A DNA stretch of 64,000 bases from Bacteroidia bacterium (GTDB lineage: Bacteria > Bacteroidota > Bacteroidia > CAILMK01 > JBBDIG01): the NCBI GenBank assembly GCA_040880525.1, contig JBBDIG010000049.1, forward strand, positions 1 to 64,000. The letters are read 5' to 3'. The notes beneath the pieces were generated by a model. The model searched no databases and was not told the DNA's origin. It was given only the letters and a program-made list of their open reading frames with translations. Each line of letters begins with the position of its first letter. The stretch's first letter is position 1. The translations under genes were made by a program, and so were the position numbers. This document shows positions 2,940 through 4,988 of this stretch, piece after piece.

Positions 2940-3027
2940 CAATTGATAAGAATTATTTTTACTTTCTTGCAACTTTTCTCCACCCTTGTGGCACTTACTC
3001 CCGAATCAAGGAAATCTAACATTCTGC

Positions 3028-3564
3028 GTGGCATCTGAAACTAATGAAAATGAAAAGGCAACGGCAGCTTTTTTCCGGCTATATGAGCCGGTACATGCTA
3101 ACTTGAATCATTTTGTGAAAGCGATGATGCACAATTCGGATGACGCAAAGGATATAATTAGCGACACAGTATTGACGGCAGCGGACAATTTTGGCAAGCT
3201 CCGGAATCAGCAGGCTTTTTTAGGATTTCTGTTTGGTATAGCCAGCAGGCTCATTAAACGACATTACCGTAAAAATAAACAAACCACGGAATTGCTCAAG
3301 AGTGAACATGACACATTACATAGCGCAGAAAATGCTCCCGGCAGTATTGACGCAGCCATTTTACGGCAGGCGCTGGAGGAACTGCCCCCGGAGCAAAGAG
3401 AGGCAGTGGTGCTATTTGAACTAATGGGATTTTCATTAAATGAAATTGTAGAGATACAGCAAAGCAGCCTTTCTGCGGTAAAATCGAGGGTGGCGCGAGG
3501 CAGAGAAAAGCTGCGAAAACTACTCACCGACAAAGAATCAGCAACCAAAAGCCGGAAAAAATGA
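3028..3564 (+). CDS. RNA polymerase ECF sigma factor (sigma-70 family)
   Basis: About 178 residues from the GTG at 3028; an upstream in-frame TTG at 2986 would add 14 residues that do not look like sigma sequence. Region 2 is seen around residues 15-85 (AAFFRLYEPVHANLNHF ... DDAKDIISDTVLTA), and region 4 around residues 115-165 with ALEELPPEQREAVVLFELMG and a helix-turn-helix (SLNEIVEIQQSSLSAVKSRVARGREKL). This is the standard two-domain ECF layout. Its stop overlaps the start of the next gene by ATGA, so the two are translationally coupled, as is usual for a sigma factor and its membrane anti-sigma partner. The regulon cannot be read from the window. Confidence 0.88.
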   Translation: MASETNENEKATAAFFRLYEPVHANLNHFVKAMMHNSDDAKDIISDTVLTAADNFGKLRNQQAFLGFLFGIASRLIKRHYRKNKQTTELLKSEHDTLHSAENAPGSIDAAILRQALEELPPEQREAVVLFELMGFSLNEIVEIQQSSLSAVKSRVARGREKLRKLLTDKESATKSRKK

Positions 3565-4988
3565 AAGAGGAAAACGCTGACATATTGAAACGATATTTCC
3601 ATGCATTGCAGGAAGAAGCGCCCCTGGTGCCACTGGAAGAAGTGAAGGAATTAATTAATAACAGGACTTCAGAAAAGAAAAGATTGCCCCAACCATTTTT
3701 TAACAATTTAAAATTCTGGATTATGACAAGCTTAATTTTAGTTTTAACAACAACGTTATTTCTTTCAGGCTTTTTTGAACAAAAGCCCCTGGAAAATCGC
3801 CCTGTAGAAGAGGTGCCACAGAAAGTAATGCCTGATACAGACAAGCCGGAATTAACACAAGGATTTCCCATAAAGGGAATGAAGATGACCAAAGAAGAAT
3901 TGGCGGATAAGGTGGCGGAGGATTCTTTGAAAATCTCAAATCCTACTAAACCTGTAGTGTATCAGAAAAATGCTGGACAAGAAGTCGGACAAGAAGCATC
4001 GTCAGAGATAGCTGACGATGGTACTCCTGACACAATGAAAACAAAACAATCCAGCACTTCGGTTTTAGAAAAGCCAAATGGTATTGATATTAGTGGAATT
4101 CCCTTTCTTGAATTAGCGCCAAAAGCGCTTGCATTATTGGGAATTGAGGTTTATAATAAAGAAATTTATTATGCCAATGAGAGCTGGCCTTTTATCTCTG
4201 CATTTTATCCCAGTGGTAGCCGACATGACTTTCTGAGTTCAAAGAATAAATTTTTGAGTGAACTTTCATTTATTGATTCTGCTAATTTGCCTTCTCTTGC
4301 ACCAGTATTTATTTCAGACTATACCGGCAACACTGTACTTTCTTCCTATGATCCCGAAGAGGTTGAGAAAGAATTAAAAGAAGATTTTATTTCATTCTCA
4401 AAAGAAAAGGATAATTGGCAAGAGCATAAAGACATGATGAATCGCTATTATTCCAGAAAGCTCAACAGCTACCTCGGTATCCTAGTCCGTTCAGGCGCTG
4501 ATCCTCTCCATCCTGACTCAAATGGATATCATCCTGATTTAATTTTCTGGTATGAGGTAAATGAAGAATTGCTAAATGCCCTGCCCAAAGAAACTGCTGA
4601 AAAGGTACGCCAGGATTATAGCAGCTTATTTTCACCCGAAATGTTTATTACCGGGAAAACAAATGCTACTGCTACCAATCAAAGCTGTACCTACTTCGAA
4701 TCATGCAAAAATCGGAAAGGCGCGTTTCAGGAATTGTTCGTAAACCCAAATCCATTTACGGAGCAAACGCACCTTACCCTCACCTCCACTGAGGAAAGGC
4801 GAGTGACGATCCGGATTTATTCCATCCAGGGAAAATTGATGGCTACGGTGTTCAAAAATGTTTTACAACCGGTTGGTAAAAAGGAATATCTGCTACAATT
4901 ACCCCATTCCGGGAAAGGAATTTATCTTATTTCCGTGACCACTGACCATGGTGAAATACTCTCTCAGCGTTTAATTAAACAGAACTGA
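3561..4988 (+). CDS. Putative membrane anti-sigma-like protein with C-terminal T9SS sorting domain
   Basis: 475 residues. The N-terminal ~50 residues are charged and cytoplasmic-looking, followed by one transmembrane segment (about residues 53-71, WIMTSLILVLTTTLFLSGFF). Then comes a Glu/Lys/Pro-rich stretch and a globular region of about 250 residues beginning near IDISGIPFLELAPKALALLG. The last ~85 residues form a typical type A T9SS sorting domain: VNPNPFTEQTHLTL, an RIYSIQGKL strand, GIYLISV, and a final KxLIKQN-like end. The ATGA overlap with the ECF sigma gene points to an anti-sigma or sensor role. A T9SS tag on a protein held by an inner-membrane helix is unexpected, because T9SS cargo normally has a cleaved signal peptide. 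The topology and the anti-sigma function are inferences; I do not recognise the middle region as a named family. Confidence 0.7.
   Translation: MKEENADILKRYFHALQEEAPLVPLEEVKELINNRTSEKKRLPQPFFNNLKFWIMTSLILVLTTTLFLSGFFEQKPLENRPVEEVPQKVMPDTDKPELTQGFPIKGMKMTKEELADKVAEDSLKISNPTKPVVYQKNAGQEVGQEASSEIADDGTPDTMKTKQSSTSVLEKPNGIDISGIPFLELAPKALALLGIEVYNKEIYYANESWPFISAFYPSGSRHDFLSSKNKFLSELSFIDSANLPSLAPVFISDYTGNTVLSSYDPEEVEKELKEDFISFSKEKDNWQEHKDMMNRYYSRKLNSYLGILVRSGADPLHPDSNGYHPDLIFWYEVNEELLNALPKETAEKVRQDYSSLFSPEMFITGKTNATATNQSCTYFESCKNRKGAFQELFVNPNPFTEQTHLTLTSTEERRVTIRIYSIQGKLMATVFKNVLQPVGKKEYLLQLPHSGKGIYLISVTTDHGEILSQRLIKQN

Follow-up and report, generated by a model that had tools for sequence, protein, structure and literature searches.

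The locus described here lies in a window of 64,000 nucleotides (contig JBBDIG010000049.1, from a member of the Bacteroidia) and consists of a gene for an ECF sigma factor, preceded by a predicted promoter and overlapped at its end by a gene for a putative anti-sigma factor with one transmembrane (TM) helix and a C-terminal type A sorting domain of the type IX secretion system (T9SS) (Table 1). The sigma factor scores above the Pfam cut-offs for Sigma70_r2 (34.7 bits) and Sigma70_r4_2 (50.3 bits) and reaches 72.2 bits with TIGR02937, and sigma2 and sigma4 are the only domains found by the profile search. GTG 3028 is its likely start, because the alternative upstream TTG at 2986 precedes the predicted -10 element. 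The description of the locus in the first-pass annotation, as an ECF sigma factor joined to its partner by an ATGA overlap, is therefore borne out by the sigma domains and by the overlap itself.

Table 1. Features of the sigma/partner locus (window positions; residue numbers are those of the respective protein).
Feature	Position	Strand	Basis or remark
-35 element TGCAACTTTT, predicted autoregulatory promoter	2968..2977	+	common upstream of group sigma genes
-10 element CACTTA, 14 nt past the -35 element (predicted)	2992..2997	+	sequence conservation
ECF sigma factor, 178 aa, GTG start	3028..3564	+	sigma2 residues 18-84, sigma4 residues 111-162
ATGA stop/start overlap of sigma and partner	3561..3564	+	sequence
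Putative anti-sigma factor, 475 aa, single TM helix and type A T9SS sorting domain	3561..4988	+	
N-terminal helix-loop-helix, residues 3-34, presumed anti-sigma domain	3567..3662	+	AF2 helices 3-18, 25-34
Transmembrane helix, predicted N-in/C-out	3720..3776	+	hydropathy 54-72; AF2 helix 44-68
Predicted disordered tether, ~104 residues (73-176)	3777..4088	+	pLDDT 24-35 over residues 70-170
Alpha/beta 'LGI...IFWYEPT' domain, residues 178-357, predicted periplasmic	4092..4631	+	one copy; relatives up to three
Cys376-x5-Cys382 pair (CTYFESC) directly ahead of tail	4686..4706	+	
Type A T9SS sorting domain, residues 395-473	4743..4979	+	PNP motif; motif E variant GE...QRL

The AF2 model of the partner, built on a 10-sequence alignment and with a mean pLDDT of 57, lays the protein out as two short helices (pLDDT about 60), the TM helix, about 100 residues of disorder, an alpha/beta domain at about residues 180-357 and a sandwich at 389-473. 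Hydropathy and the AF2 model both recover the single retained N-terminal helix that the first-pass annotation had reported. The window partner has 53 residues ahead of this helix (family median 51, range 38-78), and the count of Lys plus Arg is higher before the helix than after it in 29 of the 42 family members with a tail, a positive-inside bias; from hydropathy, this bias and the AF2 model we infer a cytoplasmic N-terminus and a periplasmic remainder. A cleavable signal peptide was considered and rejected, given the roughly 50 residues of N-terminal cytoplasmic sequence, and the N-terminus reads as a signal-anchor instead. Neither a Pfam anti-sigma domain nor zf-HC2 was matched in the window partner, and a zinc-dependent (ZAS-type) anti-sigma factor was likewise discarded, as there is no Cys before the TM helix and hence no motif of the HxxxCxxC type.

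Modelled alone, the middle domain reaches a pLDDT of 76.5 and a pTM of 0.73. It matched no Pfam family, and comparison of its model with PDB structures gave no convincing match. At least two Cys residues are present within the 60 residues preceding the tail in 23 of the 42 tailed members. Redox sensing by the Cys pair was entertained and dropped, since the pair is confined to these 23 members and TlpA-like genes lie downstream at two loci (L100, L083), which is too few.

The tail had been called a type A T9SS sorting domain in the first-pass annotation, and a profile search of the C-terminus agrees: both curated profiles match it above their cut-offs (over residues 395-471/474), PF18962 with an E-value of 7e-9 and 36.3 bits against a cut-off of 27, and TIGR04183 with an E-value of 1.4e-11 and 44.2 bits against a cut-off of 23. 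AF2 folds the tail as a seven-strand beta-sandwich (strands within 389-473, pLDDT about 80-90). This model matches the C-terminal domains (CTDs) of PorU (6za2, Z 11.2), mirolase (8qb1, Z 10.9), translocon-bound NucA (8glk, Z 10.5) and PorZ, with Z scores of 9.5-11.2 overall, and Ig-like domains that are unrelated to it come close to these scores. Because many Ig-like domains score similarly, it is the sequence profiles and not the fold that identify the tail as a sorting domain. A chance or mis-annotated tail was ruled against by the curated profiles, the AF2 fold and its recurrence in 41 of 67 sigma/partner pairs (see below). In the window genome (G000; 3.8 Mb, 98% complete), about 150 tails of this kind are encoded, along with a PorU sortase of full length (1358 bits).

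Family tails retain the PNP motif and G-x-Y in 39-41 of 41 cases, and depart from cargo at the basic residue of motif E, which precedes the last strand. Among the 40 family tails with the motif, 36 have Arg at this residue and four have Lys, whereas 40 cargo tails, taken largely from the same genomes, have Lys in 30 cases and Arg in 10 (Fisher 3.6e-9, from an alignment-free count in which related sequences are not independent). R470 of the window tail aligns with K1110 of RemZ and with the motif E Lys of mirolase. The RemZ lysine is almost invariant, functionally important and in contact with PorV in translocon structures (PMC10994853), and the motif E lysine is required for efficient secretion in studied cargo (PMC10202324). 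As the family tail departs from cargo at just this Lys, its docking may be altered or lost; possibly, the Arg-bearing tail is a specialised one that docks and is spared normal export.

Other tail-like sequences were seen as well. The partners at L095 and L154 each carry, besides the C-terminal tail, a second, internal tail-like domain (at about residues 425-489 and 414-480, respectively). In the window itself, a decayed T9SS tail fragment lies on the reverse strand at 2816-2935, just upstream of the predicted sigma promoter, scoring 27.5 bits with a TGA inside it and 25.7 bits when taken as a peptide, and farther on, at about 2500-2640, is a weak match to a Mutator-family transposase fragment (11.7 bits, below the cut-off).

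To what extent the pair recurs was addressed from both sides. A sigma-first search, blind to the partner, compared an alignment of six sigmas with 395 genomes of the phylum and found the group in 37 of them, often in multiple copies. Together with loci found earlier, its matches make up a set of 67 sigma/partner pairs. An N-terminal TM helix is predicted in all 67 partners, and the T9SS tail is recognized in 41 of 67 by PF18962 and in 41 of 67 by TIGR04183; 42 pairs were labelled as tailed, one of which (L155) matches weakly. The genes overlap in 23 of these 42 pairs and lie within 64 nt of each other in 40. The partner-first search took the linker-plus-tail region as its query, and 34 of its 35 strong matches (at least 80 bits) sit behind a sigma gene. 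By comparison with the sigma-first set, 32 of the 35 have a sigma of the group upstream on the same strand, the remainder being an intact pair below the sigma-first threshold (L297), a decayed pair (L298) and a stand-alone protein (L296). Thus, the same pair with the same tail, which the first-pass annotation had suggested might be sought elsewhere in the Bacteroidota, is found there and stays together, and the combination of sigma and tailed partner recurs across the phylum and is not a one-off. Neither of the two outcomes that the annotation had named as refuting it, a tail lacking T9SS profile support and a pair split up in relatives, came about.

The named relatives are uncultured Bacteroidota and Ignavibacteriae, with members known from genomes or MAGs alone. 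Three loci call for care in reading: the G008 copy (L083/L096), where an alr gene that looks truncated and a tailed partner missing its head stand back to back near 2290, suggesting a misjoin or break, was excluded from the linkage counts; L090 is frame-shifted; and the G011 copy is cut by a contig end. L094, titled Desulfobulbaceae, shares its gene neighbourhood with L093 of the Ignavibacteriae and is probably a mis-binned or mislabelled contig. In the sister outgroup, the partners are zf-HC2/anti-sigma-type proteins. No tail was found on the identifiable partners of other ECF sigmas in the window genome, and the barrel-paired ECFs of that genome score 34-56 bits, as compared with at least 95 bits for the window sigma group.

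The partners without a tail are informative about the architecture of the family. An HMM of the N-terminus of the tailed partners matches the tail-less partners L158, L159, L167, L100, L142 and L173 with E-values of 3e-8 to 3e-3, and L100 is the paralogue in the window genome to which the window sigma is sister in the sigma tree (98% support). Six tail-less partners (L142, L148, L151, L153, L167, L168) end in a barrel-like manner with a final F; no Pfam barrel model matched, and the barrel label rests on their sequence ends. Other tail-less C-termini comprise WD40/PD40-like repeats (L159) and a lytic transglycosylase SLT domain (L158), which are unusual ectodomains for an anti-sigma N-terminus to be fused to. 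Mapped on the sigma tree, the C-terminus labels imply a minimum of 10 changes for the tailed group, on a tree with few strongly supported branches. Judged by sequence, the tail is one of several exchangeable C-terminal modules on a common anti-sigma chassis. Because these modules interchange, we favour a general reading, in which the partner reaches to the envelope surface, over one limited to the T9SS. In the window genome, the ECF pairs L070, L071 and L073 have partners with a single TM helix and barrel-like C-termini ending in aromatic residues, resembling the Dma proteins discussed below.

The regions upstream of the group's sigma genes share the consensus TG[CAT][AG]ACTTTT, followed after a spacer of about 14 nt by a CACTTA-like element. 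In its strict form, the -35 element (TGYRMCTTY) occurs in 29 of 66 upstream regions, as compared with a mean of 1.1 and a maximum of 5 after shuffling, and in none of the five outgroup upstream regions. Judged by sequence conservation alone, the pair thus has the sigma-specific promoter expected of an ECF sigma/anti-sigma pair, and the pattern supports autoregulation of the sigma operon. The 3.8-Mb genome holds two perfect full sites, one at 2968-2997 of the window and one at the paralogue L100. Allowing two mismatches yields sites that do not outnumber those of a reversed control and are mostly intragenic, so the attempt to call a regulon beyond the two group-sigma promoters was dropped. The genome scan found no copy of the promoter at T9SS genes, and control of the T9SS by the group's sigmas is neither supported nor excluded by it.

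Two relatives of the partner stand alone, the above-mentioned L296 and L299 (70 bits). Both appear to have a cleavable signal peptide followed by the middle domain and the same type of tail, implying that the tail serves as a signal for export, and both adjoin a gene for a VIT-domain protein. A VIT gene also follows the tailed partner by about 14-21 nt at nine loci (L156, L160, L161, L162, L165, L175, L178, L182, L192), some with vWA or DUF2135, forming a sigma-partner-VIT operon; no VIT neighbour is present at the window locus. The VIT protein might be a ligand of the sensor domain, or its client. A family-like -35 element lies 82 nt upstream of the L299 start, a hint that the stand-alone sensor-CTD/VIT operons may be targets of the sigma.

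The explanation that we prefer, and to which we would give about an even chance, is that of an autoregulated ECF sigma/anti-sigma pair in which an anti-sigma factor traverses the periplasm and offers a T9SS tail to the outer membrane; here we infer the binding of sigma, the topology, the docking to the T9SS, the signal and the targets. The short cytoplasmic helices at the partner's N-terminus would hold the sigma factor. The partner would cross the inner membrane once and span the periplasm by means of its disordered tether and dedicated sensor domain, and its specialised tail would engage the outer-membrane end of the T9SS (SprA/PorV) while the N-terminus stays in the inner membrane. Altered docking of the tail, or a change within the sensor domain, might then reach the sigma factor through the tether or through proteolysis, and the freed sigma would fire its own promoter and its targets. 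This explanation is favoured by the profile scores and CTD fold of the tail, the linkage seen from both directions, the TM helix in all 67 partners, the N-terminal module shared with partners that end differently (that of the sister sigma L100 included) and the group-specific promoter, as well as by the stand-alone relatives with a signal peptide, the zf-HC2/anti-sigma-type partners of the outgroup, the presence of a T9SS in the genome and the Dma and PorA precedents. It is weakened by the shortness and low model confidence of the presumed sigma-binding region, by the departure of the tail from cargo at motif E, by the lack of the promoter at any T9SS gene and by the internal position of the second tail-like domain in L095 and L154.

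The pairing itself, which the first-pass annotation had proposed, is supported by the sigma domains and the conserved linkage. The partner could instead be an exported or membrane protein that is merely co-transcribed with the sigma gene and is no anti-sigma factor, as might be suspected from the missing Pfam anti-sigma match in the window protein and from the existence of stand-alone copies that have no sigma. However, close linkage and overlap persist across dozens of loci, about 50 conserved residues precede the TM helix, the sister outgroup has zf-HC2/anti-sigma-type partners, and the N-terminal module is kept while the C-terminal domains vary, all of which makes mere co-transcription very improbable.

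As regards the tail, its CTD fold may be nothing but a periplasmic Ig-like sensor or spacer on an ordinary sigma/anti-sigma pair, with contact to the T9SS lost. The exchange of Lys for Arg at motif E (36/40 family tails against 10/40 in cargo), the internal second copies in L095 and L154 and the resemblance of many Ig-like domains to the CTD fold would all sit well with such a loss. We nevertheless consider it unlikely, since the tail has held its place at the very C-terminus, PNP and G-x-Y persist in 39-41 of 41 tails, Lys to Arg is a conservative change, and the stand-alone relatives with a signal peptide bear the same type of tail. Those stand-alone signal peptide-sensor-CTD proteins also make a lone ectodomain plausible as cargo, and it could be, in line with the cleavage and release considered in the first-pass annotation, that a cut in the periplasm lets the T9SS export the sensor and tail while the stump is degraded and the sigma factor freed; the tail would then dispose of the ectodomain or display it. 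Anti-sigma factors are commonly under regulated proteolysis, and the long disordered stretch offers a possible cut region. On the other hand, the pair has no linked protease gene, an unsystematic look for cleavage motifs gave none, and the partners that end in a barrel-like manner speak for a lasting connection across the envelope, so that release of this kind seems to us distinctly unlikely.

How T9SS activity or the state of the outer surface is coupled to gene expression in the Bacteroidota is largely open, the PorA/PorXY/SigP route being narrow and incomplete. If the preferred explanation of a standing, outer-membrane-directed anti-sigma factor holds, cells may use the combination of sigma and tailed partner to read the state of the outer surface or of the T9SS, and a widespread one-protein link from a sigma factor to a T9SS tail would make the coupling question directly testable. 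Taken further, these proteins might be phylum-wide trans-envelope anti-sigma factors whose T9SS/PorV-docked tail, held back by the anchor and the Lys-to-Arg exchange, gauges the occupancy of the translocon or of a surface partner (VIT/vWA proteins, for example); we offer this tentatively, as a possibility that we doubt more than we believe. Were a translocon-docked tail to prove true, it would amount to a built-in gauge of type IX secretion read directly into transcription. In the open-access literature searched, we found no prior description of an anti-sigma partner with a T9SS tail.

The closest architectural parallel is provided by the Dma proteins, dual-membrane-spanning anti-sigma factors whose sigmas belong to ECF21 and which consist of an N-terminal sigma-binding domain, a TM helix, a long disordered tether and a C-terminal barrel (PMC13088901). 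The window partner shares with them the single TM helix and long disordered tether (by hydropathy and AF2), the adjacent ECF sigma gene, the presumed cytoplasmic sigma-binding region, the C-terminal module aimed at the outer membrane and the occurrence in Bacteroidota. It differs in ending in a T9SS CTD beta-sandwich and not in an outer-membrane beta-barrel, and its family adds a dedicated folded domain in one to three copies; the scores of the window sigma group, moreover, are clearly separated from those of the barrel-paired ECFs in the same genome. A more general Dma principle is thereby suggested, with interchangeable outer-envelope modules on a common anti-sigma chassis. Classical zf-HC2/ZAS anti-sigma factors are likewise encoded behind their sigma gene and have one TM helix and a cytoplasmic N-terminus, as predicted here, whereas the window partner lacks N-terminal Cys residues and has a large multidomain ectodomain with a sorting tail.

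With type A cargo, the family has in common the seven-strand CTD, PNP and G-x-Y, the position at the extreme C-terminus and, in the case of the window, a T9SS in the genome; it is set apart by a signal-anchor in place of a cleaved signal peptide, by the motif E Arg (R470 here) in place of the near-invariant Lys and by a conserved SGAI/Cys linker ahead of the tail. The nearest functional precedent is PorA of Porphyromonas gingivalis, a CTD protein that acts upstream of the ECF sigma SigP via PorXY, a route for which feedback from T9SS operation has been proposed (PMC7712824). In both cases, a type A CTD protein stands upstream of an ECF sigma factor; PorA, however, is small, secreted and equipped with a signal peptide; it is confined to Porphyromonas and works by a two-component route and not by fusion to an anti-sigma factor.
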